A DNA stretch of 22,343 nucleotides from Gemmatimonadota bacterium (GTDB lineage Bacteria; Gemmatimonadota; Gemmatimonadetes; Gemmatimonadales; GWC2-71-9): positions 1 to 22,343 of the forward strand of contig QHUQ01000216.1 in the NCBI GenBank assembly GCA_003221985.1, given 5' to 3'. The stretch's first letter is position 1. Each line of letters begins with the position of its first letter. Position numbers and translations under genes: made by a program. Below, piece after piece: positions 3,666-20,322 of the stretch. The notes beneath the pieces were generated by a model that saw only the letters and a list, made by a program, of their open reading frames with translations, did not search any database and was not told where the DNA came from.

Positions 3666-3682
3666 TTCGGGTTATATTCGGG
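3666..3682 (+). promoter_or_regulatory. Shared direct-repeat operator/promoter, site A (zinc ribbon-SPL operon)
   Basis: The sequence TTCGGGTTATATTCGGG is an exact direct repeat, TTCGGG-N5-TTCGGG, with 11-bp period. The spacer region contains TATATT (3673-3678), a good -10 candidate. The ATG of the downstream gene begins 9 nt after that hexamer, so the transcript would start at or within about two bases of the start codon. No Shine-Dalgarno fits in the gap. The same element precedes imuB and lhr in this window. Its function as an operator is inferred from position and recurrence. Confidence 0.72.
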
Positions 3683-3686
3683 GTAT

Positions 3687-3812
3687 ATGGCGGTCCGAAA
3701 GCCCCGGGAATCCCCTCCCAAAGCTCCTCCATGTCCTGATTGCGGCGCGAAGACCGCTCACCAGTCCGGCTGCGTCGTGTGCCTGCAGTGCGGCTGGGCA
3801 CGGTGTGTCTAG
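3687..3812 (+). CDS. 41-residue zinc-ribbon protein, NrdJ C-terminal-like
   Basis: A small six-cysteine protein with the pattern C16-x2-C19-x9-C29-x2-C32-x2-C35-x4-C40 and a CGWARC ending. The spacing and the SGCVVCLQCGW motif resemble the C-terminal zinc ribbon of class II (B12-dependent) ribonucleotide reductases, but here it stands alone. The N terminus is a short basic/proline-rich tail (MAVRKPRESPPKAPP). The start is chosen because the ATG lies immediately downstream of the -10 of site A, and the ORF ends by overlapping the GTG start of the radical SAM gene by 8 bp, which implies coupled translation. It may be a metal-binding partner of the SPL-like enzyme or a small nucleic-acid-binding protein. 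Neither role can be shown from the sequence. Confidence 0.68.
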   Translation: MAVRKPRESPPKAPPCPDCGAKTAHQSGCVVCLQCGWARCV

Positions 3813-4860
3813 CCGCCAGCTGCCCCTTCTACCGGCCGACAGGCCGTCCGGCCGTCCGCCCGTCATCCTGGACGAGCGCCTCCGCGGCACTCGCTTTGTT
3901 TCGCTCACACCGCATCGCGTCCTCAATCCGCCGTCCGCCACCGGGATGGATTACTGGTCACTCAACCCCTACGTCGGGTGCGAATTCGGCTGCAGCTACT
4001 GCTATGCGCGCTATACGCACCGCTACGTTGTCGAGCGGGCGCACGACGCCGGCAAGCTCACCGACGCCGAGTTCGCCGATTACCGTGGCGCACACGGCTG
4101 GGAAGCGTTCGAACGGCGCATTTTCGTGAAGGAGCAGGTGGTCGGCGCGCTCGACGCCGACCTGAAGCGGGTGCCAGTGGGCGAGTGCATCGTCATCGGC
4201 ACGGCGACCGATCCCTATCAGCCCGCCGAGCGACGGTTTCGGCTCACCCGGGCCGTGCTGCAGCGCCTGACGCGCTGTGAAGGGTTGTCGTTCGGCATCA
4301 TCACCAAGAGTCCACTCATCGCCCGCGATTGTGACGTGCTCCTGCGATTGCAGCAGCGCAACGAGCTCCAGGTGCACGTCTCGCTGATCACGCACGATGC
4401 GCAGCTCGCGCGGAAGCTCGAGGCGCGCTCGCCGGTTCCTGCAGCCCGGCTGCGCGCGCTGCACAAACTCGTCGCAGCCGGCGTCAATGCCGGACTCATC
4501 GTGGCGCCGGTGCTGCCGGGAATCACGGACGACATCGGGCATCTGGACGCGTTGTTCGCCGCCGCGCGGGACGCCGGCGCCCATTTCGTGCACGCCGGGG
4601 CGCTGCGACTCTATGCCGCAGTCCGCCACCGCTTCTTGCCTGTTCTTGATGAGCATTTTCCGGATTTGGTGGCGCGCTACACTCGAGCCTACGCGCGACA
4701 GGCAGGTGCGCCGCGCGAGTACACCAAGGCTCTGTCGCGGCGCATCGAGAAGCTACGGCGCAAACACGGGTTCAAGAATCACACCGGCATGATCGACCGC
4801 TACCGCCCCACCAACATGCCGGTCCAGGGCGAGCTCGAGCTGCGCGGCAGCCTGCCCTAG
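3805..4860 (+). CDS. SPL-type radical SAM protein (COG1533 family)
   Basis: A 351-residue radical SAM enzyme. The 4Fe-4S/SAM motif C-x3-C-x2-C is at residues 59-66 (CEFGCSYC), preceded by the family block SLNPYVGCEFGC. Later conserved stretches are IGTATDPYQPAER and ITKSPLIARD. The C-terminal NHTGMIDRYRP tail is also typical. The family is related to spore photoproduct lyase, but most members outside spore formers have no proven substrate, so a nucleic acid repair role is inference supported by the operator shared with imuB and lhr. The start is GTG at 3805, overlapping the zinc-ribbon gene. Residues 5-9 (QLPLL) resemble a weak beta-clamp-binding motif. A GGCCGTCC tandem repeat lies within codons about 11-20. 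The stop overlaps the convergent lipoprotein stop as CTAG. Confidence 0.88.
   Translation: MSSRQLPLLPADRPSGRPPVILDERLRGTRFVSLTPHRVLNPPSATGMDYWSLNPYVGCEFGCSYCYARYTHRYVVERAHDAGKLTDAEFADYRGAHGWEAFERRIFVKEQVVGALDADLKRVPVGECIVIGTATDPYQPAERRFRLTRAVLQRLTRCEGLSFGIITKSPLIARDCDVLLRLQQRNELQVHVSLITHDAQLARKLEARSPVPAARLRALHKLVAAGVNAGLIVAPVLPGITDDIGHLDALFAAARDAGAHFVHAGALRLYAAVRHRFLPVLDEHFPDLVARYTRAYARQAGAPREYTKALSRRIEKLRRKHGFKNHTGMIDRYRPTNMPVQGELELRGSLP
3834..3865 (+). repeat. Imperfect 8-bp tandem repeat (GGCCGTCC)
   Basis: Four adjacent octamers read GGCCGACA, GGCCGTCC, GGCCGTCC, GCCCGTCA inside the 5' end of the SPL gene. The unit is the reverse complement (rotated) of the GGCCGGAC repeat found in the DUF6504-like gene at 9307-9330. 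It codes for the proline/arginine-rich linker before the conserved domain, so it is tolerated in frame. Confidence 0.7.
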
Positions 4861-5516
4861 TTGAGCGTAACGAGCTCGAAGACTCGAGTTTCTCCGCAGA
4901 TCGGCGTTGGAGACTCGTGGATGTATCCCCGGACGAATGCGTACGAGAACCTGGCCGTGTCGGCCTGATCCTCGAGCACGTACGCTGTGCGAATAGTCTG
5001 GTTCGGCCGGAGGCGGACGCATCCAAGGTTGTCGATGTCTTGGGCGGCGAACCCGGCTGCATTGCGACGTGAGCTATCGGGATCGGTGGGCCGTACGGTC
5101 ACGTCTCCATAGGTTCGGACTGGAAGCGTGTTAGTCCCTGGAGTTGGCGCGGACACTTGCGATGCCGCCCGCATCTCGAAGGTGCGTGCGACGCTCGCCC
5201 TAAGGCCGGGGGCCGTTACGACAATGTCGAGCGCGTTGGGATAGACCGTGTACACGCCGGGCGGGCAGAAGCCGTGCTTCGTGTCCACCAGAAAATAGGG
5301 CGCGAAGGTGACAGCGGACTGATCGGCGTGGGTGCCGGGCTTGAACACGCCTTGATGACAGCCGGGACGGGAGACGATCAGTCGCACCGGGAAAGGTGCA
5401 GCGACTGACACTTCCGCCGGCCACTCCATCCATTCGACCGTTGCGGGCGCTAGTGAAATGTCGGACTCACAACCAACCAGTGCTGTGAGCAGCGGGAGAT
5501 AATAAAAGGGACGCAT
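4857..5516 (-). CDS. Predicted lipoprotein, paralogue A of a tandem triplet
   Basis: A 219-residue exported protein with a short signal peptide and lipobox (TALVGC, then ESD), so it is probably lipid-anchored. The body is shared with the two upstream neighbours: a WMEWPAEV stretch right after the anchor, DQSAVTFAPYF, GLRASVARTFEMR, PVRTYGDVTVRP, SRRNAAGF, and YVLEDQADTARFSYAFVRGYIHE with a terminal CGETRVFEL. Several cysteines besides the anchor could form disulfides. I do not recognise the family and assign no function. The ATG at 5516 lies 3 bp after the stop of paralogue B, so the three genes are very probably co-transcribed. Its TAG stop shares CTAG with the SPL stop. Confidence 0.85.
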   Translation of the reverse strand: MRPFYYLPLLTALVGCESDISLAPATVEWMEWPAEVSVAAPFPVRLIVSRPGCHQGVFKPGTHADQSAVTFAPYFLVDTKHGFCPPGVYTVYPNALDIVVTAPGLRASVARTFEMRAASQVSAPTPGTNTLPVRTYGDVTVRPTDPDSSRRNAAGFAAQDIDNLGCVRLRPNQTIRTAYVLEDQADTARFSYAFVRGYIHESPTPICGETRVFELVTLN

Positions 5517-5519
5517 ACA

Positions 5520-6221
5520 TCAATACCGCGCGACGAGGTGAAAGACTCGTTGGCTCTCCCCGCAGACCGGCCCGGGAGGCTGGTGGATGTAGCCCCGCAC
5601 GAACGCGCCCCTGAGTCCTGCGGTGTCCGCCTGGTCCTCCAGCACGTACGCCCCGTCGAGATGGTACACACCGATGGGGATGATGCGCGCACAGCTCGTG
5701 TCGAGCAGCTTCGCCACGAATCCGGCCGCGAACTGTCGAGTATCGACCGGTGCGTCGGGACGCACCGTGAAGCTGCCAAACGTGCGAACCGGCTGACCCC
5801 CCACCTCCGCCGTACTCATGGGAAGCGCGTACGCCGATGATGCGCCCCGCATCTCGAAGACGCGGGCAAGACTGGCCCGGAGCCCCGGCGCAATGCCCAC
5901 CGTTTCCAGCGCACCGATGACGAGCATACCGGTCGGCGGGTAGTACGCTCTCGCCGCCGCACAAGTTGGGCGCGGTGGTTCGACGATGAAGTAAGGCGAG
6001 AATGTCACCGCGGATTGATCGGCGAATACCCTGGGCCGATAGGTCGACTGCTGCCCGCAATCTCCCGGTTCCGCGATCACGATCTGGACATTGAATGGCG
6101 TGTTGGCGCGAACTTCGGCCGGCCATTCCATCCACTGCACGATGCCGCTGCGCACTTCGGTGTCCGACTCACAGGCGGCCAGCGGGAGAGCGAGGATCGG
6201 GAGATAGTGGAGGAGGCGCAT
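5520..6221 (-). CDS. Predicted lipoprotein, paralogue B of a tandem triplet
   Basis: A 233-residue lipoprotein starting MRLLHYLPILALPLAACESD, with lipobox LAAC. The frame is open for another 15 codons upstream, but the ATG at 6221 gives a compact signal peptide and is preceded by GAGG on the minus strand. It shares WMEWPAEV, DQSAVTFSPYF, GLRASLARVFEMRG, PVRTFGSFTVRP, YVLEDQADTAGLRGAFVRGYIH and CGESQRVFHL with paralogues A and C. It is separated from the stop of paralogue C by 2 bp and from the start of A by 3 bp. The function is unknown. The variable parts lie between the shared blocks, mainly the loop after the first cysteine and the segment before the DQADTA block. Confidence 0.85.
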   Translation of the reverse strand: MRLLHYLPILALPLAACESDTEVRSGIVQWMEWPAEVRANTPFNVQIVIAEPGDCGQQSTYRPRVFADQSAVTFSPYFIVEPPRPTCAAARAYYPPTGMLVIGALETVGIAPGLRASLARVFEMRGASSAYALPMSTAEVGGQPVRTFGSFTVRPDAPVDTRQFAAGFVAKLLDTSCARIIPIGVYHLDGAYVLEDQADTAGLRGAFVRGYIHQPPGPVCGESQRVFHLVARY

Positions 6222-6223
6222 GG

Positions 6224-6895
6224 TTATTGCCTCGCCGTTAGATGGAAGACGCGGGTTTCGCCGCACACGGGCACCGCCACGTCGTGGATGTAGCCACGCA
6301 CGAACGCATACGAGAGACCTGCGGTGTCGGCCTGGTCTTCGAGCACAAGCGCCGTGGCCGGATTGTACAGCGCCGCCGGAGTCACTCGCGAGCAGCCCCC
6401 AACGTCGGTCTGCCGATTGACCCAGCCCGCTGCGTTGCGGCGGGATTGATCCGCGCCCGAAGCGCGCACGATCACATCGCCGAACGTCCGCACTGGAAGA
6501 TGGGGAACGGGATCGACGGCCATCATGGAGCCGCGCATCTCGAACGTGCGCGTGTTCGCCGCGAACAGACCCGGTGCCATCCCAGCGGTGTCGAGAGGGC
6601 CCACGAGGAGGCCCGGGGCTGGCGCCGTCACCTCACCGACACAGGCGATGTGCTCGTCGCTGGTCACGAAAAATGGCGCGAACGTGACGGCGGACTGATC
6701 GACCCTTACTCCCGCATGGAATCGCGGGTTGAGGGCGCAGACGCCGTACACCACGATCCGGGTACGGAACGGCTGACCGGCGGTCACCTCCGCGGGCCAG
6801 TCCATCCACTGCACGACCACGGGATCGATGTTTACACTGGACTCACACGCGGCAAGAGCTCCGAGGCTCAGCGTCGCTAACCAAGTAAGGCGCAT
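6224..6895 (-). CDS. Predicted lipoprotein, paralogue C, first of the tandem triplet
   Basis: A 223-residue lipoprotein starting MRLTWLATLSLGALAAC, with lipobox LAAC followed by ESS. I chose the ATG at 6895 over an in-frame start 17 codons upstream because it follows an AAGGAG Shine-Dalgarno at 6902-6907 with a 6-nt gap and begins a clean signal peptide. It shares the triplet's blocks: WMDWPAEV, DQSAVTFAPFF, TFEMRG, PVRTFGDVIVR, SRRNAAGW, LVLEDQADTAGLSYAFVRGYIHD, CGETRVFHL. It lies 28 bp after the stop of the DUF72 gene on the same strand, so the whole set may be one transcript. No function is recognised; export and lipidation are the only supported predictions. Confidence 0.85.
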   Translation of the reverse strand: MRLTWLATLSLGALAACESSVNIDPVVVQWMDWPAEVTAGQPFRTRIVVYGVCALNPRFHAGVRVDQSAVTFAPFFVTSDEHIACVGEVTAPAPGLLVGPLDTAGMAPGLFAANTRTFEMRGSMMAVDPVPHLPVRTFGDVIVRASGADQSRRNAAGWVNRQTDVGGCSRVTPAALYNPATALVLEDQADTAGLSYAFVRGYIHDVAVPVCGETRVFHLTARQ

Positions 6896-6901
6896 AGTCC
6901 G

Positions 6902-6907
6902 CTCCTT
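6902..6907 (-). promoter_or_regulatory. Shine-Dalgarno site of lipoprotein C
   Basis: AAGGAG on the minus strand lies 6 nt before the ATG at 6895 and decides this start over the longer frame. Confidence 0.7.
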
Positions 6908-6923
6908 TACCTCCTCTACCCCG

Positions 6924-7892
6924 TCAATTGGCCTCCGAGTCACCATCCAACCACTGGCGGGCGACCGCTTTGATCGTCCCCGGCGCGTTCCCTTCGGCCC
7001 GGTTATTCGCGAGGATGAACGCTTCGATGCGCCGGCGCAACGCTTCGCGCACGAGCTGCAAGAGATCCGCGCGCAGCGCCGGTTGTGGCTCCTGCACGCG
7101 GTCGTACGGCTGGAATTGCTTCACCGCGTCGCTGTACCGGCGGCCCGGCTTGAGCAGCGCCCGCGCCACCGTGAAATCGGCCGGAAAGGTCCAGCCGAGG
7201 TCGATCTGGTCGCCGATCGACGGCATTTCCGTCCAGGAGTTGAATACGTGCGTGAGGCCATGTCGCTTCAGCACTTCACCATGCACGCCGGTGAGCAGCT
7301 CGGGATTGCGTAGCTCGACGCCGTAGCGAAAGTCGCGCGGCAACTCCGTGAAGAAGTCGTCGAGCTGATCGGCCCACTGCAAGGGATCCGGCAGATCCTT
7401 GCCACGCATCGCCTGGAACTCAAAGACGAAGCACCCCGCATGATCGCTGAACACTCGGCTGTAGGGACCCAGGACGGCGTCCTTGAACAGCATCGCATTG
7501 AGAAAGTCCGGATTCTTCATGCCGGCGAGGCCTGGTTGCGCGGCATCCTGACCCAACCGTTTCGCCGTGATGCGATCCCAGACTTTGCTCACGCACGGAA
7601 AGCCCGCTGGCAACGCGCGGGCGTAGGACCGCAATTCGTCTTCTGACGGCGGATCGTAGAACGCACTGTCGATGCCGACGGTCCGAAACAGTGGATAGCG
7701 CGCGTATTCCTCGAGCCGCCTGGCTGGCTCGGGGCCGCGATAGCGACGGTGATAGACGTCGCCAAACCAGCCGTCGTAGGTCCAGGTAGAGGTTCCAAAT
7801 CGGATGTTCGCCGGGATTCCTTGTGCGAGTTCAACCACCTCATGGCTTGGAGCCGGAAGTGCTTCAGGGCCAAAGAGATCCGGTTGAGTCAT
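6924..7892 (-). CDS. DUF72 (YecE-like) TIM-barrel protein
   Basis: A 322-residue soluble protein of the DUF72 family (Pfam PF01904), a TIM-barrel fold without an established reaction. Family blocks visible are FGTSTWTYDGWFGDVYH near the N terminus, YPLFRTVGIDSAFYDPPS, FPCVSKVWDRIT, YGVELRNPELL, HVFNSWTEMPS and the C-terminal FILANNRAEGNAPGTI. The ATG at 7892 is preferred to a TTG two codons upstream. No Shine-Dalgarno is evident; a TAGACT hexamer lies just upstream as a possible -10. The N terminus QPDLFG matches the bacterial beta-clamp-binding pattern (Q-x-D-L-F). The gene diverges from imuB, and operator site B lies in the 82-bp gap, 45 bp from this start, so joint control is possible. Confidence 0.9.
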   Translation of the reverse strand: MTQPDLFGPEALPAPSHEVVELAQGIPANIRFGTSTWTYDGWFGDVYHRRYRGPEPARRLEEYARYPLFRTVGIDSAFYDPPSEDELRSYARALPAGFPCVSKVWDRITAKRLGQDAAQPGLAGMKNPDFLNAMLFKDAVLGPYSRVFSDHAGCFVFEFQAMRGKDLPDPLQWADQLDDFFTELPRDFRYGVELRNPELLTGVHGEVLKRHGLTHVFNSWTEMPSIGDQIDLGWTFPADFTVARALLKPGRRYSDAVKQFQPYDRVQEPQPALRADLLQLVREALRRRIEAFILANNRAEGNAPGTIKAVARQWLDGDSEAN

Positions 7893-7937
7893 CAGCAAAG
7901 TCTAATCTCCCGGAAACGCCTTGCGAGTGAGGTAAGC

Positions 7938-7954
7938 TTCGGGATATATTCGGG
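7938..7954 (+). promoter_or_regulatory. Shared direct-repeat operator/promoter, site B (imuB-dnaE2 operon)
   Basis: TTCGGGATATATTCGGG differs from site A by one base and keeps the exact TTCGGG-N5-TTCGGG repeat. TATATT at 7945-7950 is the predicted -10, which puts transcription start near 7957. That is 3 nt before an in-frame TTG and about 18 nt before the ATG at 7975. It sits in the divergent gap between DUF72 and imuB. Confidence 0.75.
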
Positions 7955-7974
7955 TCCCCTTGGGGCTTTTGTCA

Positions 7975-9249
7975 ATGTCGCGACGTCCTACGAGCTCGCT
8001 CGCTGCCTGCGTCTGGATTCCCCTCTTCCCGCTCCGCTGTGAAGAGGCTCGGCATGAGGGACTGGTTGGCTACCCCACCGCCCTGCTCGCTCCCGACACC
8101 ACCCGCAAGCTCTGGCAGGTCTCCCCCCTCGCCCGCCATGCCGGCGTGAAGCCGGGCATGACGGTCAGTCAGGCGATCGGCCTCTGTTCCACGCTGCGGC
8201 TCATCGAACCCGATCCGGTCCATTACGACGAGCGCTTTGCCAATCTGCTCTCGGCACTCACCGAGGTGAGCCCGGTTGTCGAGGCTGCGGAATTGGGCCT
8301 CGCGTATGTGGGTGTGGACGGCTTGGAAGGGATTTATGGCTCGCGAGAGAAGATCATCGAAGCGCTCAAGAAGACGTTGGAATGTTGGAATGTTGGAAGG
8401 ATAGGGCTCGGTCCAGGAAAATTCGTCGCCTGGGTAGCCGCGAGTCGCACCAAACCGGGGGAAGCGATCGTCGTACCGCTCGGCGAGGAGCAGAAGTTTC
8501 TCGCATCGCAACCGGTCTCCGTCCTGCCGCTCGACCCTGACACGCATCGCCGGCTCCGCCAGCTCGGCATCCGCAGTCTCGGCGCACTCGCCGCTCTTCC
8601 GGAAGCAGCCGTCACGGCACAATTCGGCGCGCTGGGGAAGCGACTGTGGCGCCTCGCCGCGGGCCGCATCGCGGAGCCCGTCGCCGGATCCATCGCGCCC
8701 GAGCCGATCGTGGCCGCGCTCACCTTCTTCACGCCTGTCGGTGAGCGCGAGCTGCTCGTCCACTCCCTCGACCAGCTGATCGCTCGCGCGCTCAAACATC
8801 CACGCCGTATCGGCTGGCGCGTGCATGCGGTGCGACTGCGCGCCGACCTCGAATGTGTGGAGATGAATGAAAACGCAGGTAGGGGCGCAGCATGCTGCGC
8901 CCCTACAAATCGTTCCTGGCTCGTCAACGTGTTGTTGAAGGATCCGACTGCGGACGGTGAGCGCATCGCCGCGCCGCTCAAGACCCGGCTCGAGCAATCG
9001 CCGCCGACGGGCGCCGTCGAGCGTCTCGTCCTCGAGTTCACCGCCTTCGCGCCCGGCACCGCCGAGCTGCAGCTGTTCGCGCGCGATGCGCAGGCGGCCG
9101 CGCGCGCGGGCCAGCAGCGTGCGTTGCAGAGCGCCGCACGCGAGATCCGCATGCGCGTGCAGCGCTCGTGTCTTTACCACATCATCGAGGTCCAGCCATG
9201 GTCGCGCCTGCCCGAGCGCCGCTACGCACTGATCGACTACGAGCCGTAA
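7975..9249 (+). CDS. imuB: ImuB-like Y-family polymerase homologue (mutagenesis cassette)
   Basis: A 424-residue ImuB, the non-catalytic Y-family homologue that links DnaE2 to the sliding clamp during damage-induced mutagenesis. The start VWIPLFPLRCEE, the thumb region RRLRQLGIRSLGALAALPEAAVTAQFG and the end PWSRLPERRYALIDYEP are typical. The acidic catalytic residues of true Y-family polymerases are missing, both in the first strand and in the SIDE-type motif (here AELGLAYVGVDGL). ATG 7975 follows GGGG with a 9-nt gap; an in-frame TTG at 7960, just after the predicted transcription start, is the alternative. No imuA lies nearby. Two repeat insertions disturb the protein: a 24-bp TTGGAATG triplet (residues about 135-142) and the 28-bp palindrome, which codes for GRGAACCAPT. 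Both keep the frame. Confidence 0.9.
   Translation: MSRRPTSSLAACVWIPLFPLRCEEARHEGLVGYPTALLAPDTTRKLWQVSPLARHAGVKPGMTVSQAIGLCSTLRLIEPDPVHYDERFANLLSALTEVSPVVEAAELGLAYVGVDGLEGIYGSREKIIEALKKTLECWNVGRIGLGPGKFVAWVAASRTKPGEAIVVPLGEEQKFLASQPVSVLPLDPDTHRRLRQLGIRSLGALAALPEAAVTAQFGALGKRLWRLAAGRIAEPVAGSIAPEPIVAALTFFTPVGERELLVHSLDQLIARALKHPRRIGWRVHAVRLRADLECVEMNENAGRGAACCAPTNRSWLVNVLLKDPTADGERIAAPLKTRLEQSPPTGAVERLVLEFTAFAPGTAELQLFARDAQAAARAGQQRALQSAAREIRMRVQRSCLYHIIEVQPWSRLPERRYALIDYEP
8377..8400 (+). repeat. 8-bp tandem repeat x3 (TTGGAATG) inside imuB
   Basis: Three consecutive octamers TTGGAATG, TTGGAATG, TTGGAAGG occupy 24 bp, so the frame is kept. They encode LECWNVGR in the segment just before the conserved GLGPGKFVAWVAA strand. 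Confidence 0.85.
8879..8906. repeat. Perfect 28-bp palindrome, copy 1 (inside imuB)
   Basis: The left arm GTAGGGGCGCAGCA is followed directly by its exact reverse complement, with no loop. It is identical to copy 2 at the end of dnaE2. Here it is read in the frame that has no stop (AGG GGC GCA GCA TGC TGC), adding a cysteine-containing loop between the conserved VRLRADLE and SWLVNVLLKDP strands. Confidence 0.97.
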
Positions 9250-9485
9250 ACGAGCCGCGCGCCGTTACGGTGGAGTTGGATGAATCCGGTCTCATGACGG
9301 TCGGATGGCCGGACGGCCGGACGGCCGGAATAGTCGAAGCAATTCTCGAATCATGGCGAATCGACGATGAATGGTGGCGTCAGCCAATTTCTCGGTCGTA
9401 TCTGGAATTGTTGTTGGCAGGAGGAAAGCGCGTCGTGGTATTTCAGGATTTATTGACGGGCCTTTGGTTCATACAGCAGCCATGA
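9198..9485 (+). CDS. Small DUF6504-like protein of the imuB-dnaE2 operon
   Basis: A 95-residue ORF between imuB and dnaE2. The core is VEAILESWRIDDEWWRQPISRSYLELLL followed by a short strand pair ending LTGLWFIQQP. This resembles the small DUF6504-type proteins that accompany ImuB/DnaE2 cassettes in other phyla (recalled family resemblance, not searched). The ATG at 9198 is preceded by GAGG with a 7-nt gap and overlaps the imuB 3' end by 52 bp; a GTG at 9270 is an alternative. Its TGA overlaps the dnaE2 ATG as ATGA, indicating coupled translation. A GGCCGGAC tandem repeat sits in its N-terminal half. The role is unknown; the position suggests an accessory of the mutasome. Confidence 0.72.
   Translation: MVAPARAPLRTDRLRAVNEPRAVTVELDESGLMTVGWPDGRTAGIVEAILESWRIDDEWWRQPISRSYLELLLAGGKRVVVFQDLLTGLWFIQQP
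9307..9330 (+). repeat. 8-bp tandem repeat x3 (GGCCGGAC)
   Basis: Units GGCCGGAC, GGCCGGAC, GGCCGGAA form 24 bp in frame, encoding part of WPDGRTAGIV. The unit is the rotated reverse complement of the repeat in the SPL gene (3834-3865). Confidence 0.85.
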
Positions 9486-12400
9486 CTCAGGGGCCGTTGT
9501 ATGCGGAGCTGCATTGTCATTCCGCATACTCCTTCCTGGATGGTGCCTCGCCGCCGGACGAGCTGCTCGCCGCAGCGCACCACCACGGCTATCCAGCCCT
9601 GGCACTCACCGATCGCAACGGTATCTACGGCTCGCTCGCATTCGCGCACGCCGCCAAACCGCTCGGCCTGCAGGCAATCACCGGTGCCGAAGTCACGCTC
9701 ACGGACGGCAGCCATCTCGTTCTGCTCGCCGAGACACCGCAGGGGTACACGAATTTGTGCCGGCTGCTCACCGAGTCGCATCTCGGCGCCGAGCGTCTCG
9801 ATCCCCGGTTGCCGCTCGCGGCGATCGAATCGCGCCATGATGGTCTGATCATTCTTTCAGGGTCGCGCCGTGACGGCATGTTGTCGCGGGCTCTGGAGAA
9901 CGATGGACTGAGCGCTGCCCGCAAGCTCGCGGAGCGGTGCCGAGTGGTGTTCGGACCTGACCGGTTTTTCGTGGAGATCCAGCGAAATAGGGTGCGCGGA
10001 GATTTGGCGCATACCACGACACTGCATAGTCTCGCAGGCGACGTACACCTTGGCGTCGTAGCGACGGGTAACGTCTACTACCACACCCGCTCCCTGCATC
10101 GCCTGCACGACGTCATGGTCGCGATCCGCCACCGCACGACGCTCGACGGCTCGCACCGGGTGCGAAATCCGAACAGCGAGTTTTACTTGCGGCCACTGGA
10201 AGAAGTCGTGACGCTGTTTCATGACTGTCCGGATGCTGTCGCTACGACATTGTCCATCGCCGAGCGCTGTAAGGCCTTCGACCTGACGCGCGACCTGGGC
10301 TACACCTTCCCCGACTTCCGCGGGGCCGATCGGGCTCCCGCGCCGCAGGCGCTGGCCGAGCTGTGCAACGCGCGGATGCAGGAACGCTATCCCCCAGGCT
10401 CGCTCTATCATGCCCAGGCCGTCCGCCGGCTCGCGGAAGAATTGCAGCTCATCGAGCTTCACCAGCTCAGTGGCTTTTTCCTCGTCTACCACGACCTGTT
10501 CGATCTCGCGCGCGAGGTCGCGGCCGACATCCGGCGCGGCTCGCGGCGCGCCGGCGGCAACTTGCTGCCGGGCCGGGGCCGCGGCTCGTCCGTCTCGTCC
10601 ATCGTCTGCTACCTGCTCGGCCTGTCGCACATCGATCCGATCGCTAACAAGCTCTTTCTCGGCCGCTTCCTGAACGAGACGCTCGCGTCGGTGCCCGACA
10701 TCGATCTCGATTTTCCGCGCGAGATCCGCGAGGAGCTGATCCGCCGCGTCTACACGCGCTACGGCGCCGAGCACGCCGGGCTGGTGTGCTCGTTTCCCAC
10801 GTACCGGCTGCGATCGGCGGTGCGCGAAATCGGCAAGGCGCTCGACTTGCCGCTTGGCGAAATCGAATTGGTCGCCAAGCTCGCCGATGGCCGCGCCGAT
10901 GAGCTGCCGGATGAAATGGAAAACCTGCCGGGATTCAAAGGCCGCAAGGACGCGCCGCTGTGGAAAGAGCTGTGCCAGCTCGCGCACGACATTCGCGGCC
11001 TGCCGCGCCACGTCTCGCAGCACCCCGGCGGCATGATCATTTCCTCCCGGCCGCTCATCGAGCTGGTGCCGCTCGAGCGCGCTGCGATGGATGACCGCGT
11101 CGTCTGCCAGTGGGACAAGGATTCCTGCGACGACGCGCGCTTCATCAAGATCGACTTCCTCGCGCTCGGCATGCTGTCGCTGGTGGAGGAATGCGTCGAG
11201 CTGATCGCGCGGCGCACGGGAACGCCTCCCGATCTGTCACGCATCGACTTCGAAGACCCCGCCATCTACGACCGCATCTGCGCCGGCGACACGATCGGGC
11301 TGTTTCAGATCGAGAGCCGCGCCCAGATCCAGATGATCCGGCGCAGCCGGCCGCGCAACCTCGAGGATCTCGCGGTGGAAGTCGCGATTGTCCGGCCGGG
11401 CCCGATTGTCGGCGGCGCCGTGAACCCGTACGTCAGGCGGCGGGAAGAGCAGCGGCGCGCGCATGCGGCCGGCCGCGCCTACGAGCCTCCCGTCGATCAC
11501 CCGCTGCTACGCGACTGTCTCGCGGAGACGCTGGGCGTGATTCTCTATCAGGATCAGGTGCTGCAGGTGTGCCAGGCGCTCGCGGGCTTTACGACCGGAC
11601 AGTCCGAGGCGCTGCGCCGCGCCATGAGCCGCCGCCGCTCGCACGACTTGATCGGAGGCTTCTGGGACGAATTCCGCCAGGGGGCGCTGGCTCGTGGTGT
11701 CTCCGAAGCAACCGCGGAGAAAGTCTTCGGCCAGGTGATCGCGTTCAGTGAATTTGGATTTCCCAAGTCGCATGCCGCAGCGTTTGGTCTGCTCGCCTAC
11801 CAATCGGCGTGGCTCAGGCACTACCATCCAGTCGAGTACTACGTCGCCCTCTTCAATAATCAGCCGATGGGCTTCTACTCGATCGATGCGCTGGGACGCG
11901 ACGCCATGCGCAACGGCATCGAGATGCGCTTGCCCGACGTGAACCAGAGCGACGTGTGGTGTACGGTAGAGCGGGAAACGGGAAACGAGAAACGAGAAAC
12001 GGCGGTTCGGATTGGACTAGGATTCATTCGCCATTGGAGTGAAGAAACAGCCACCGCGACCGTGCTCGAACGTGAGCAGAACGGGTCGTTCAAAAGCGTT
12101 GGCGATTTCATTAGGCGCGCGCCGCCCAGGCGCAAACGCACCGCCATCGAGGCGCTCATGTGGGTGGGCGGCTGTGACGGATTCGGTCTCACGCGCCGCG
12201 AGCTGTTATGGCAGGTGGGACTGTGGCTGCCACCGAAAGCCTCGCGCTCCGTCGACGGACGCGGCCGGCGCCAACTCGAGCTGGCGTTGAGCCACCCCCA
12301 CGAGCAGCTGCCCTTCGGCGGTCTCGCGGCCCACGAGCGGCTCCTGGCCGAGTATGCCACGCTGGGATTTTCTGCCAGCGGGCATCCCTTGACGTTAGTG

Positions 12401-13189
12401 CGCGGTGCGTTACCACCTAACCTCACGCTGAACAAGGCCTTGGAGAGTCTCAGGCCGGGACAAAAATGCCAGGTGGCCGGTCTTGTCGTCGCGCGTCAGC
12501 GGCCGGAGACCGCGAAGGGGACCGTATTTCTGCTGGTCGAAGACGAAACCGGAATGACGAACGTGATCGTGCGGACCGACGTCTACGACCGCTATCGGGC
12601 AGCCGTCCGAGGCGAGCCGTTCGTGCTCGTAACGGGGAAACTGGCCAAGGATGACGGCACAGTGAATGTGCTGGCGGAGAAAGTGGACGGATTGCAGTTG
12701 GTAGGGGCGCAGCATGCTGCGCCCCTACACGACACGGTTAGTCGAAGGCCTCCCCAAATCCCCTCGCGTTGTCGACAGCCGCGTCATCGAGCTCAGCGAT
12801 CCCGCGGTCGTCGACTCGCGCCAGCCCTATCATGCCGGTTTCGGCACCGCGCAGACCGATTCCGCAGTAGTGACTCGCCTCGTGCGCGGCATCGAGCGAT
12901 TTTCCCGTCGCGCCATCGCGACTCTCATTGCCGAGTATCGCGAAGACCATCGTGTGCGCAGGGCCGGCGTTATTGTCGCATCATTGACGGATCCCGCTAC
13001 CATCGCGAATCAGCACATGCGCGCCCACGCATCCGAAGGCCGGCTGTTTCGCAGAGTGCTCGTCGATGGCCTCGAGCGCTGCGGCGTGACCATTCGAATC
13101 GCGCTGGAACGGGAGGTCTACGGCCTTTTGGCCAAGGCCCTGCACCAATCACCGACCAGGGTGAAGACCAGGGTAACCGCACTGGGTGA
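9482..13189 (+). CDS. dnaE2: Error-prone DNA polymerase DnaE2, 3' end extended by read-through
   Basis: DnaE2 is the C-family polymerase that does translesion synthesis with ImuB. The PHP domain starts at once (HCHSAYSFLDG, residues 11-21); LLPGRGRGSSVSSIVCYLLGLSHIDP precedes the catalytic PDIDLDF at about residues 405-411; SQHPGGMI and FGFPKSHAAAFGLLAYQSAWLRHYHP follow; an OB fold lies at about residues 995-1070. Homology ends near base 12700, where about 1,073 residues is the normal family length. The frame then runs on 160 codons through a palindrome and the next gene as an Arg/Ser/Pro-rich shadow, because no stop remains. ATG 9482 overlaps the upstream TGA (ATGA); the frame open to 9371 is not used. 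A 7-bp tandem repeat lies at 11973-12000. Confidence 0.93.
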   Translation: MTQGPLYAELHCHSAYSFLDGASPPDELLAAAHHHGYPALALTDRNGIYGSLAFAHAAKPLGLQAITGAEVTLTDGSHLVLLAETPQGYTNLCRLLTESHLGAERLDPRLPLAAIESRHDGLIILSGSRRDGMLSRALENDGLSAARKLAERCRVVFGPDRFFVEIQRNRVRGDLAHTTTLHSLAGDVHLGVVATGNVYYHTRSLHRLHDVMVAIRHRTTLDGSHRVRNPNSEFYLRPLEEVVTLFHDCPDAVATTLSIAERCKAFDLTRDLGYTFPDFRGADRAPAPQALAELCNARMQERYPPGSLYHAQAVRRLAEELQLIELHQLSGFFLVYHDLFDLAREVAADIRRGSRRAGGNLLPGRGRGSSVSSIVCYLLGLSHIDPIANKLFLGRFLNETLASVPDIDLDFPREIREELIRRVYTRYGAEHAGLVCSFPTYRLRSAVREIGKALDLPLGEIELVAKLADGRADELPDEMENLPGFKGRKDAPLWKELCQLAHDIRGLPRHVSQHPGGMIISSRPLIELVPLERAAMDDRVVCQWDKDSCDDARFIKIDFLALGMLSLVEECVELIARRTGTPPDLSRIDFEDPAIYDRICAGDTIGLFQIESRAQIQMIRRSRPRNLEDLAVEVAIVRPGPIVGGAVNPYVRRREEQRRAHAAGRAYEPPVDHPLLRDCLAETLGVILYQDQVLQVCQALAGFTTGQSEALRRAMSRRRSHDLIGGFWDEFRQGALARGVSEATAEKVFGQVIAFSEFGFPKSHAAAFGLLAYQSAWLRHYHPVEYYVALFNNQPMGFYSIDALGRDAMRNGIEMRLPDVNQSDVWCTVERETGNEKRETAVRIGLGFIRHWSEETATATVLEREQNGSFKSVGDFIRRAPPRRKRTAIEALMWVGGCDGFGLTRRELLWQVGLWLPPKASRSVDGRGRRQLELALSHPHEQLPFGGLAAHERLLAEYATLGFSASGHPLTLVRGALPPNLTLNKALESLRPGQKCQVAGLVVARQRPETAKGTVFLLVEDETGMTNVIVRTDVYDRYRAAVRGEPFVLVTGKLAKDDGTVNVLAEKVDGLQLVGAQHAAPLHDTVSRRPPQIPSRCRQPRHRAQRSRGRRLAPALSCRFRHRADRFRSSDSPRARHRAIFPSRHRDSHCRVSRRPSCAQGRRYCRIIDGSRYHRESAHARPRIRRPAVSQSARRWPRALRRDHSNRAGTGGLRPFGQGPAPITDQGEDQGNRTG
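11973..12000 (+). repeat. 7-bp tandem repeat x4 (GGGAAAC/GAGAAAC) inside dnaE2
   Basis: Two GGGAAAC units are followed by two GAGAAAC units. They encode RETGNEKRET in the loop between the conserved LPDVNQSDVWCTVE and VRIGLGFIRHW segments. The composition is unlike the flanking codons. Confidence 0.9.
12701..12728. repeat. Perfect 28-bp palindrome, copy 2 (dnaE2 3' end / next gene start)
   Basis: Identical to the copy at 8879-8906. In the dnaE2 frame it is read without a stop (VGAQHAAPL). In the frame of the following gene it supplies a TAG stop (12702-12704) and then an ATG (12714-12716). Confidence 0.97.
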
Positions 13190-15580: not shown

Positions 15581-16117
15581 ATGACCACTGAACTCGCGAC
15601 ACTGGCCGGCGGCTGCTTCTGGTGCCTCGAGGCCGTCTTCGAGCAGCTGCGCGGCGTCACCAAAGTCACGTCCGGCTACTCCGGCGGGCACGTCCCGAAG
15701 CCGAGCTACGAGGCCGTGTGCAGCGGGACGACCGGGCATGCCGAGGTTGTCCAGGTCACTTTCGACCCCGACGAGATCTCCTACCGCGACCTGCTGGGCG
15801 TGTTCTTCACGTTGCACGACCCAACCACGCTCGACCGCCAGGGCGGGGACGTCGGCACCCAGTATCGGTCGGCGATCTTTTATCATGACGACGAGCAGCG
15901 GGGCACCGCAGAGGCAGTCGTTCGCGAGCTCGAGGCCGAGCACGTGTTTGACGATCCGATCGTGACGAAGATCGAGCCACTGCAGGCATTCTATCCGGCC
16001 GAGGAGTACCACCGGGAGTATTACCGCAGGAATCCGAACCAGCCCTATTGCCGCGCGGTCATCGCCCCCAAAGTGGCGAAGCTGCGCAGCAAATACCTGC
16101 AGCAGCTGAAAGCCTAG
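15581..16117 (+). CDS. msrA: Peptide-methionine (S)-S-oxide reductase MsrA
   Basis: A 178-residue cytoplasmic enzyme that reduces the S epimer of methionine sulfoxide in proteins. The active-site GGCFWC lies at residues 10-15, with the catalytic cysteine first in FWC context. The family blocks [60 protein letters not shown] and [21 protein letters not shown] follow in order. The protein ends soon after a C-terminal lysine-rich stretch. The ATG has only a weak upstream ACGAG. The gene is probably co-transcribed with the TonB-domain gene. Its TAG stop overlaps the lhr stop on the other strand (CTAG, 16114-16117). Confidence 0.96.
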
Positions 16118-19100
16118 CCCGCGGTCTTGCTCTTGCCGAGGTAGGTCCGCACCAGCGGGGCGGGCCGGCGGCGCAGCAAGGCGCCGCGCAGCATGTCGCG
16201 CTCTTCCGCCGGCACGTCCAGGAGGAACCGCTCCTTGCCTTCGCCCTCCTTCACGACGATCGGCACACCATCGCGATAGAGAATGCGGTTCGTCGTAATC
16301 GCCGCTACTGCGTCACCTGGTGTCAGGATCCCGACAAGGTTCAGCGGATCGGCACCACTGACGGCGATCAGCTCATCTGCGCCCTGCTCCCTGCGCGTGC
16401 TCCGCAGCAAGCCAATTGCTTCCGGTAGGGCATACTGCTCCCCAGAGAACCCGCCGACGAACCGGCCGCCCCGAATCTCGCCGCGGGCCTCGAGGCGCCG
16501 GAAGACGCGCAGGATATCCCGCCACGGCGCGAGCAGCGTTTCGCGCTGCACGAGCCGGCGGAACACCACGCCATAGCGCCGCAGCAGCTGCCACGCGATT
16601 GCTTCCGCCACTTGCTCCTCGGGAATCGCCGGGCGCGCGTGCGTGCGAGCCCACCGCCCCGCCGTCTCCACACCAAACGGTGCGATTCGCCCGCGGCGCC
16701 GGTATCCGCCACCGAGCGGCCGCCGGCGATCCGACGGGACGAGCAACGCCCTGAGCCCGGCAAAGCTGTCCGAGGAGACCAGCCCCCACGCCACCAGCTC
16801 GGCCAATCCCTTCTCGACTTCGGTGCGCAGCAAACCGGTGGCGTTGACGAGATCGCCGAAGAACAGGGCGCCTTTCATCTCGAACGCACCCAGCAGCGCC
16901 TTTCCGGTGGAGGAAAGCGGCAGCGTCGCAGGATCGACTTCCGGATTGCCTGCTCGCCAGATTTCCCCGCGGTCGCGCCGGAATAATGCGATGGGGGTGG
17001 AGCGCACAGGCCCAACCTTGCGATTCCGCATTCCCACTTCCGCATTTCGAATTGCGTTGAGCCGCCCCCAGGCGATCTCCCCCGATAAGCACAGGCCGTC
17101 GAGCCACAGGGGATCATAGTCCGTGAGACGAGCCGGCAGCACTTCGGACTCCCACGCGCCGGCCGCCAGCTCGTAACCGTCGAGCAGATCGAGGACTGCC
17201 GCCAACCCTTCGGGTCCCTCGGCGCGCGATCCGGTCGCGAGCCGCTGCCACTTGAAGAGGAAGCGCAGGAAGTCCGCTGCCGCGACCGGCTCGATCTCTT
17301 TGCGCAGGCGGTCGAGCGTATAACGATGGATCCGCGCCAGCAGCCGCCGTTCGCACCACTCGAGCTCCTGGACGCCTGCCGAGAAATGCCCGCGCAGCGC
17401 GAACCCCTCGTGCTCGAGCGCGGCGAGCGCGAAGTCAATGTCGCTCGGCGCTAATCCAAGTATCGCAGCGACATCTGGGGCTGTCGTTGGACCGATGACC
17501 TCGAGCCGCCCGCGCACCAGCTCGCGGATGGCATCTTCTCTGCTCCATGACTTCGCGCGCTCGCGCTCCGGAGCAGTAACGGCCGGCTCGAGGACCGCGT
17601 CGGGGAACGCAGCCTGGACCATCGGCACACGCTCAGTAGCGACCCAGAGCTTTCCATCCATCACTGTGGCGCGCCCGGCGGCAAGCAACTGCGCGAAATG
17701 CGGGGCCCATTCAGTCCGTTTTCCGGCCTCGAGCAGCGGCACGACACCCATGACGAGCAACGCGTCGTGCAGCTCATCGGCGTTCTCAGGATCCGGCCAC
17801 GCCTGCTCTCTCACGAGATCGATGGCCGTCTGATCGAGCTTCCCGAACTCCTCGGCCGTCTTCACGTCCAGACCGCGACGCGTGATCACCGCCTGCGTGC
17901 GCCGCTCTTCGAGTGGGGCATCGTCGAGGAACGCGTACGGCCGGGCGTTGAGCACCTCGTGACACAGCGGCGAGGGCTCGGTCGTGTCGCGCGCGATCAA
18001 AGTGAACTGGCCGGCCTCCATCCCTTCCAGCACGCGCTTCAGTCCCGGAAAATCCATCGCCTCGAGCAGACAGTCGGCGATCGTCTGATTGACGAGTGGG
18101 TGATCGGGAATCTCCCGGTCGCCGACCAGGTTTTCCGGACAGGCGAGTTGATCCGGGAACACTGCGGCGACGAGATCTTCCGCTTCCATGCGTTGCAGCG
18201 GCGTCGGGACTTTGCGGCCGCCCCGGAAGCGCAGCACGGCGAGCGCGCGCGTCGCGTTCCAGCGCCAGCGCGTCCCGAACACCGGGGCGTCGAGCATCGC
18301 TTGCACCAACAGGTGTTCCGCAGTTGCAGGCTTCAAGTACTGAAATACATCGTCGAGAGGAAAACTGTGTTGCGGACCAAGAGACAGGATGATCGCGTCC
18401 TCTGTTGCCGCCGCCTGGAGCTCGAAATTGAAGCTGCGGCAGAACCGCTTGCGCAACGCCAGTCCCCAGGCGCGATTGATCCGGCTGCCGAACGGCGCGT
18501 GCAGCACGAGCTGCATCCCGCCGGCCTCGTCGAAGAACCGCTCCAGCACCAGGCACTGCTGCGTCGGAATCGTGCCGAGGATGACGCGGGTCGCGCCGAG
18601 ATACTCGACGATGGTGCGCGCGCCTGCTTCGTTCAGGCCGATCGTGTCCACGAGCCACTTGATGGCGGCCGGCGGATCGTCCAGCCGGTCGGCCACGTCC
18701 TGGCGCAGCCGCGAAACTTCCTCCGACAGCTCGTTGGTCCGCCCCGGCGCCTCGCCGACCCAGAACGGCAGCGTGGGCGGTTGCCCCCTAGCGTCGGCGA
18801 CGCGCACCTGCCCCGACTCGACTTTGACGACCTGGTAGGACGTGTTCCCCAGCTGGAAGATGTCGCCCGGCATGCTTTCAATTGCGAAATCTTCGTTCAA
18901 CGTGCCGATGAACGTCTCGGTGGGCTCGAGGATGACACGATAGTCGCCCAGATCGGGAATCGCCCCGCCTGACGTGATCGCGGCGATACGCGCGCCGCGC
19001 CGCCCTTTGAGCTTCTTGTTGATGCCGTCGTAGTGGATGTGCGCGCTGCGCCGCCCGCGGCGCGTCGTGAATCCCTCCGCCAGCATCTGCACCACGTCGT

Positions 19101-20175
19101 CGAACTCGGCCCGCGAGAGATCCCGATACGGGTAGGCGGACCGCACCCGCTCGAACAGGTCGTTCTCGTCCCATTCTTCGCCGGCCGCGGCCGCCACGAT
19201 TTGCTGCGCGAGGATGTCGAGCGGCTTGTCGGGAATGATCAGACGGTCGAGCCGCCCTTCCTTCGTGGCGCGCAGCATCGCGGCGCATTCGATCAGCTCG
19301 TCTCGCGATAGCGGGAAGACGCGGCCTTTGGGAATCGCGCCCAGCCGGTGCCCGGCGCGGCCGACGCGCTGCAGCAACGTGGCGATTGAGCGGGTCGAGC
19401 CCACCTGAATCACGAGATCGACGCTGCCGATGTCGATGCCCAGCTCGAGCGATGCGGTGGCGACGAGCGCCTGCAGCTCGCCGCGCTTGAGCCGCTCCTC
19501 CGCCTCGAGCCGCTTCTCGCGTGACAGACTGCCGTGGTGGCTGGTGACGTGATCGGCGCCGAGCCGCTCCGAGAGATGCATCGTCAGCCGCTCGCACAGG
19601 CGTCGCGTATTCACGAACACCAGCGTCGTCTTGTGCTGCGTAATCAGCTCGGCGATCCGCGTATTGACTTCTTCCCAGACTTCGGCCGACATCACCGCTT
19701 CGAGCGGCGACGACGGAATCTCCAGCGCCAGGTCGAGCGTCCGGATGTGGCCGGCGTCGACGATCGTGGGCAGCGGCTGGCCAGTGCCCACGAGAAACTG
19801 CGCGATCTCCTCGATCGGCCGCTGGGTGGCCGATAGCCCAATGCGCTGCGGCCGCTTCCCGACGAGCGCGTCGAGCCGGGCGAGCGAGAGGGCGAGGTGG
19901 CTGCCTCGCTTGTCACGCGCGACCGCGTGGATCTCATCGACAATGACCGTCCGAACCGACCGCAGCATCTCGCGGGCGCGTTCGGACGTGAGGATGAGGT
20001 AAAGCGATTCGGGCGTCGTCACGAGGATGTGGGGCGGCTGTTTGAGCATCGCCTGGCGCTCGGACTGCGGCGTGTCGCCGGTCCGCACCAGCGTCCGTAC
20101 TTCGACCTCGGGCAGCCCCTGCTCCGCCATCTGCGCACGGATCTCGGCGAGCGGCTCGGACAGGTTCTTCTGCAC
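16114..20175 (-). CDS. lhr: Large Lhr-type ATP-dependent helicase, Walker A lost
   Basis: This 1,353-residue ORF holds most of a full-length Lhr, a superfamily 2 DNA repair helicase with a C-terminal extension. Visible motifs are TTPES (53-57), DEIH (80-83), SAT (115-117), [12 protein letters not shown] (239-250) and QRVGRAGHR (269-277). The Lhr core follows, with [20 protein letters not shown] and [26 protein letters not shown], then winged-helix and C-terminal domains up to [11 protein letters not shown]. Motif I (Walker A) is absent: the ORF begins at GTG ([13 protein letters not shown]) just after the usual motif Ia. The true N terminus is found out of frame at 20177-20302. The protein would not be expected to bind ATP normally. 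A repeat-like segment (17019-17056) encodes [16 protein letters not shown] at about residues 1038-1053. Confidence 0.9.
17019..17056 (-). repeat. Imperfect 8-bp tandem-like repeat inside lhr
   Basis: Plus-strand units GATTCCGC, ATTCCCAC, TTCCGCAT and TTCGAATT occur in succession (17022-17053). The stretch is A+T-rich compared with the flanks and lies between the conserved EIAWGRL and [14 protein letters not shown] segments, in frame. Confidence 0.6.
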
Positions 20176-20176
20176 G

Positions 20177-20302
20177 TCATTCGACAGCGCCTTGAGCGCC
20201 TTGCTGGATTACCGGCCAGGCGCGCCGCTGTGGCTCGGTAGGCTCCGCGAACCGATTGGCGAACCAGCGTTCGATGACAGGATGAAAGCGGGACAGCGGC
20301 AT
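20177..20302 (-). pseudogene. lhr: Detached N-terminal fragment of lhr
   Basis: ATG at 20302 opens a 41-codon frame, [35 protein letters not shown] and then six junk residues to TGA at 20179-20177. This is the exact N terminus expected of Lhr. In the next frame the sequence continues directly as [17 protein letters not shown], the usual motif Ia. The missing part is the roughly 40-45 residues that carry the ATP-binding APTGSGKT loop. The join lies at about 20190-20203, beside a short direct repeat AAGGCGCT. So the gene has an internal deletion plus frameshift (or there is an assembly error here). Confidence 0.85.
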
Positions 20303-20305
20303 GAT

Positions 20306-20322
20306 ACCAAATATAACCCGAA
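20306..20322 (-). promoter_or_regulatory. Shared direct-repeat operator/promoter, site C (lhr)
   Basis: On the minus strand the element reads TTCGGGTTATATTTGGT. Its first 13 bases are identical to those of site A, and the second half-site is degenerate. TATATT ends at 20310 and the lhr ATG is at 20302, a distance of 8, so the mRNA would start at or next to the ATG. The patatin gene on the same strand stops at 20333, 10 bp upstream of the element. Confidence 0.72.

Follow-up and report, generated by a model that had tools for sequence, protein, structure and literature searches.

A short direct repeat found three times in a 22,343-nucleotide stretch of DNA, which is referred to in its entirety as the window, is very probably the LexA operator (SOS box) of the Gemmatimonadota, as judged from sequence comparison throughout the phylum. 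The element is better described as TTCGG-N6-TTCGG, in which the half-site recurs head to tail with a period of 11 bp, and is conserved upstream of the genes that it serves, where it overlaps their promoters; the LexA of these genomes has intact cleavage and catalytic motifs. According to the proposed mechanism, a dimer of canonical, self-cleaving LexA would bind the two head-to-tail TTCGG half-sites, whose 11-bp spacing corresponds to one helical turn, and would block promoters of the sigma-70 type, the -35 and -10 of which overlap the operator. In undamaged cells, LexA would repress its own gene (as a rule by way of two operators in tandem) as well as recA, imuB-dnaE2, the SPL-type radical SAM operon and a few others, with lhr included in part of the phylum, and DNA damage would render RecA active, leading to LexA self-cleavage and to the expression of these genes. 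We infer LexA as the binding protein, as well as repression and induction, from evidence on the regulator that comes from relatives, the window contig itself carrying no lexA.

The preliminary description had placed three copies in the window on given strands, with a single-base difference between the first two and no further full copy, all of which was reproduced by a scan of the 22,343 nt: sites A, B and C match TTCGGGWTATATTYGGK with 0 mismatches, boxes A and B differ at a single base, and no fourth match occurs in the whole window at up to three mismatches. These 3 copies compare with a mean of 0.05 expected, and 0 of 100 dinucleotide shuffles reached 3. The predicted boxes and the genes around them are listed below.

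3666..3682, + strand: SOS box A (predicted), TTCGGGTTATATTCGGG, ahead of the SPL-type radical SAM operon; window scan, orthologues 24/24
3687..3812, + strand: zinc-ribbon-like ORF, 41 residues, between box A and the SPL-type gene
3805..4860, + strand: SPL-type radical SAM protein, Rv2578c/PA0069-like, below curated cut-offs
6924..7898, - strand: DUF72 protein, divergent from imuB, with box B in common
7921..7926, + strand: predicted imuB -35, TTGCGA, 18 bp before TATATT
7938..7954, + strand: SOS box B (predicted), TTCGGGATATATTCGGG, between the divergently oriented DUF72 and imuB genes; imuB orthologues 28/35, DUF72 16/17
7945..7950, + strand: predicted imuB -10, TATATT, inside the operator spacer
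7960..9249, + strand: imuB-type Y-family polymerase homologue
9371..13189, + strand: dnaE2-type error-prone DNA polymerase
16114..20302, - strand: lhr, long ORF 16114-20175 plus N-terminal frame from the ATG at 20302
20306..20322, - strand: SOS box C (predicted), TTCGGGTTATATTTGGT, upstream of lhr, second half-site degenerate; lhr orthologues 10/16

The DnaE2 of the window shares 85-91% identity (best segment) with eight uncultured Gemmatimonadota loci (L001, L002, L003, L005, L010, L024, L072 and L075). Box C is weaker than A and B, its second half-site being TTTGGT, and TTCGGGTATATTTCGG is found upstream of lhr in the relatives L001, L002, L010, L024 and L075. Compared with four relatives, the window lhr lacks about 130 bases including the Walker A motif (about 20170-20302, - strand) and its N-terminal frame ends early, as would result from gene decay or from faulty assembly. 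Since the lhr box is degenerate and the lhr frame is without a stretch found in relatives, box C may be inactive in the lhr of the window, or the contig may be imperfect.

Two further groups of small frames adjoin the listed genes. The 41-residue ORF at 3687-3812 has a CxxC...CxxC pattern and resembles the C-terminal tail of the B12-dependent ribonucleotide reductase, and similar ORFs adjoin the box in the relatives examined. After DUF72 and on the same strand (4857-6946, -) lie three tandem paralogous lipoprotein-like ORFs with no Pfam match, homologues of which are present in several relatives, as a single copy in most of those seen.

The element was followed at the orthologues of the window genes in a survey of 80 related loci. 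TTCGG-N6-TTCGG stands upstream of all 24 orthologues of the SPL-type gene for which enough upstream DNA was available, and TTCG-N7-TTCG upstream of 28 of 35 imuB genes and 16 of 17 of the divergent DUF72 genes that use the same box, by which DUF72 may come under SOS control too. For lhr, the latter pattern was present in 10 of 16 orthologues, with both half-sites as TTCGG in 5, and absent in the other 6. The seven imuB misses comprise six with a box before an SPL-type gene further upstream and L025, where a perfect box precedes dnaE2 at a distance of 1.6 kb. The dnaE2 gene has a box upstream in 35 of 41 directly testable loci (mirrored control 0); this count covers 41 of the 49 loci L032-L080, leaving out L042 and L072, where imuB lies upstream, and L059, L068, L071, L075, L079 and L080, which have too little upstream DNA. 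Four of its six misses (L056, L061, L067 and L069) have the box before imuB instead; in L063 a box follows the match start by 68 bases, and in L066 the upstream stretch scanned contains no box. The preliminary description had considered that the motif might occur at the same rate before unrelated genes, which is not what was found: the box was seen upstream of 0 of 73 orthologues of six other window genes (PHO4 0/16, amino-acid permease 0/14, hydrolase 0/8, TonB 0/12, MsrA 0/22 and patatin 0/1) and upstream of 0 of 22 groES genes, 8 of 30 groES loci having been left out where the gene start was not found. The mirrored-pattern controls were not always zero, with PHO4 giving 1, SPL 2, imuB 3, TonB 1, MsrA 1, groES 1 and lexA 2 of 58.

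The association with lexA and recA, which the preliminary description had put forward as a check, was borne out, with controls at or near zero. A PF01726 match was obtained in 60 of 61 phylum genomes, and canonical lexA was examined in 59 of them, that of G065 being left out. TTCG[GC]-N6-TTCG[GC] occurs within 250 bp upstream of lexA in 58 of 58 loci, and L129, which has two copies, makes it 59 of 59. Among the 58 loci, one copy is present in 4, two in 52 and three in 2, and neighbouring boxes are 24-28 bp apart in 42 of 56 pairs. At recA, TTCG-N7-TTCG is present upstream in 26 of 30 loci, frequently in the form TTCGT-N6-TTCGG (14 of 29 with a stricter pattern), and three of the four recA genes without a box belong to a single clade that is described below. 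When gapped 4+4 words were listed with no motif given, TTCG-N7-TTCG headed the list at lexA (58/58) and shared the top place at recA (26/30), and a different element, the GCAC/GTGC inverted repeat that we take to be CIRCE, emerged at groES.

Comparison of 103 lexA boxes revealed that the six bases of the spacer are almost unconstrained, apart from a preference for T two positions ahead of the second half-site. TATATT, which the imuB-, SPL- and lhr-type copies have in common in the spacer, was accordingly rejected as part of the recognised motif. Of the 17-mer given in the preliminary description, the direct repeat and its 11-bp period were retained, and the recognised element was reduced to TTCGG-N6-TTCGG. 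Half-site variants TTCGT or TTCGC are found in some promoters or clades.

The LexA of G001, the closest relative searched, contains both a LexA_DNA_bind and a Peptidase_S24 domain, and it can be matched to solved structures of LexA. In the LexA proteins of the relatives, the Ala-Gly cleavage site and the Ser and Lys residues are kept in 51 of 58 by pattern and in 58 of 58 by eye. The G001 helix S-L-A-T-V-H-E-H-L aligns with S-P-N-A-A-E-E-H-L of the structure chains, which we take to be LexA of the E. coli type, and its E falls at chain position 45, presumably a position with a contact role. The LexA of Bacillus has a similar recognition helix, and its box has a TTCG core. Base 5 of the two half-sites was found to vary with this helix: in the 53 lexA genes encoding TVHEH it reads GG in 100 of 106 boxes, GC in 5 and CG in 1, and in the five genes encoding TVHKH it reads CC in 8 of 8 boxes. 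The link between base 5 and the helix residue is a single contrast, because the TVHKH genes all fall in one clade (support 100/99). The recA gene was seen in three of the five TVHKH genomes and has no box there. In many recA boxes the fifth base of the first half-site is T, which a LexA of the E type would have to accept at this place.

The genome-wide extent was examined with two patterns. The window-like pattern with one mismatch allowed gave 46 matches against 0 mirrored in 12 genomes, and the loose TTCGGNNNNNNTTCGGK gave 93 against 10 mirrored in 8 genomes. In G001, 8 of 16 loose matches lie before SOS-type genes, namely lexA (two), recA, dinB, a UvrD/PcrA-type helicase, SPL, imuB and lhr, and the other 8 are in coding-looking or unrelated places. 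The helicase box was also seen in G002, boxes precede a RecA-like gene, which could be of the ImuA type, and a dnaE-type gene in G047, and a radical SAM gene is preceded by one in G029. The box was absent upstream of 24 dinB genes (6 of 30 dinB-type loci were left out, and the G001 dinB, where a box was seen, is not among the 24) and of 19 uvrB genes (the usable ones of 20 stretches), leaving both unsupported as general regulon members and speaking against a wide repair regulon. The expectation that repair genes lie downstream thus held for lexA and recA and failed for uvrB and, outside G001, for dinB; by the sequences surveyed, the predicted regulon is small, and these two genes are not members where tested. 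Eleven of the 93 loose matches are copies of the 17-mer TTCGGATCATGTTCGGT, 8 in G027 and 3 in G064 (L298). The one copy inspected overlaps the beginning of a frame that by our own reading is transposase-like, and this repeat is possibly a mobile element with a start like an SOS box. Phage contigs were dropped: in 69 stretches with the pattern, the scan was confined to the immediate surroundings of each copy, and the sole stretch with two copies seems to be a local duplication.

The predicted promoters show how the operator could act. At lexA, the order TTG, box 1, TAnnnT was found in 51 of 53 genes, with the first box filling the gap between -35 and -10; the hexamers are spaced by 17 bp in 47 and by 16 bp in 4, and the second box usually comes after. 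For imuB and SPL, 22 loci chosen for carrying TTCGGGATATATTCGG upstream of either gene were compared, and TTG lies 16-18 bp before TATATT in 26 of 26 copies (scrambled control 0). No TTG was found at 16-18 bp before TATATT in boxes A and C of the window. Because of the 26 copies, and because box B is preceded by TTGCGA at 18 bp, TATATT probably serves as a genuine -10 within the operator, in agreement with the -10-like character first noticed for it. Moreover, in four relatives the ATG of lhr follows a few bases after the box, which suggests that its message is leaderless or nearly so.

Such a -10 might instead belong to a dedicated sigma factor, for example of the ECF type, and a sigma-specific promoter had indeed been the alternative in the preliminary description. 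The -10 distance at which TATATT follows TTG in the imuB, SPL and lhr copies, together with the single orientation of every box seen at lexA and recA, would agree with it, but TATATT is missing from the lexA boxes and from many recA boxes, the lexA box sits between another -35 and -10, and lexA mostly has two tandem copies. In addition, the opposite strand alone carries the box at 10 of 24 SPL genes and at 7 of the 35 box-bearing dnaE2 genes, and boxes in either orientation are allowed for a repressor site and not for a promoter. With no fixed geometry, a dedicated sigma factor was rejected on box orientation and placement, and is now very improbable.

A similarly slight probability attaches to another damage-responsive regulator as the binding protein, either a second LexA-like paralogue or an activator of the PafBC/WYL type, in place of canonical LexA. 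A LexA-like paralogue (helix STKTVSEHL or similar) does exist in many genomes, yet 0 of 11 of its genes (L183, L187, L189, L197, L215 and L217-L222) have a box upstream, G001 has boxes with one clear LexA only, the box is found at all 59 canonical lexA genes, and its base 5 shifts with the canonical LexA helix. Least probable of all, to the point of being negligible, is a chance repeat or a functionless mobile repeat: the TTCGGATCATGTTCGGT copies are one repeated element in two genomes and other loose matches lie in coding or unrelated places, in keeping with such an origin, but the excess over the shuffled window, the lack of boxes at the other window genes and the retention of the box at the same genes phylum-wide while the spacer bases vary all stand against it. 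The initial proposal, a dimeric repressor akin to LexA that occupies a direct repeat over the -10, is supported by the boxes at lexA and recA. A more detailed reading can be offered tentatively, as plausible rather than probable: a LexA dimer of the usual type would use a head-to-tail operator whose origin is separate from that of the alphaproteobacterial box, the E or K of its helix would set G or C at base 5, and in many SOS promoters the -10 would lie inside the operator, where LexA and RNA polymerase would compete.

Direct-repeat LexA boxes are known from other bacteria. The alphaproteobacterial GTTC-N7-GTTC resembles the present element in its direct repeat, 11-bp period, TTC core and splB-type gene under LexA, as described in PMC3323433. 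By contrast, the Gemmatimonadota half-site TTCGG is without the leading G, GTTC-N7-GTTC precedes just 6 of 58 lexA genes, no site in the window carries a G ahead of each TTC, and the phylum is another; the source being a gemmatimonadote, the comparison is only an analogy. In the Balneolaeota, PMC7739468 describes the LexA direct repeat TTACACATATTTTWTACATA and a comparable regulon that includes lexA and recA along with translesion polymerases, a helicase and a protein of the radical SAM family, and notes that LexA reached the direct-repeat arrangement several times; sequence and phylum differ, and binding was tested there in vitro. The Gram-positive GAAC-N4-GTTC shares LexA and the half-site TTC (PMC3323433) but is a palindrome, and was found in 0 of 58 lexA upstream regions. 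The mutagenesis cassettes of imuA-imuB-dnaE2 have been described as LexA-regulated (PMC3919608); imuB likewise adjoins dnaE2 in the window, whereas imuA was not identified there and the box sequence appears new. In PMC3323433 and PMC8565304, splB-type genes are also placed under LexA.

No published description of a LexA motif in Gemmatimonadota was found in the openly licensed literature, as judged from listings. The candidate damage regulon first noted as undescribed is of a known kind, LexA/SOS control; the operator sequence, its place in Gemmatimonadota and the base-5 exchange appear to be new. One more direct-repeat LexA motif is thereby added, and the SOS box and core SOS gene set become readable from assembled genomes of a phylum known mostly by environmental metagenomes. 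Meanwhile, the natural exchange of E for K and of G for C in one clade provides a direct test of LexA operator change and, if true, the helix residue and base 5 would constitute a readable specificity code.

Several minor observations were made near the boxes. A gene assigned by eye to RND-type transporters has a box about 150 bp upstream in two genomes (L267/L268; G002, G001), and holB has one nearby in two genomes (L284/L083; G001, G003), the second holB being assigned by eye. In the TVHKH clade (G013:C32, G017:C230, G019:C91 and G021:C161), lexA and a dinB-type gene are encoded on the same strand about 2 kb apart and possibly form one operon.
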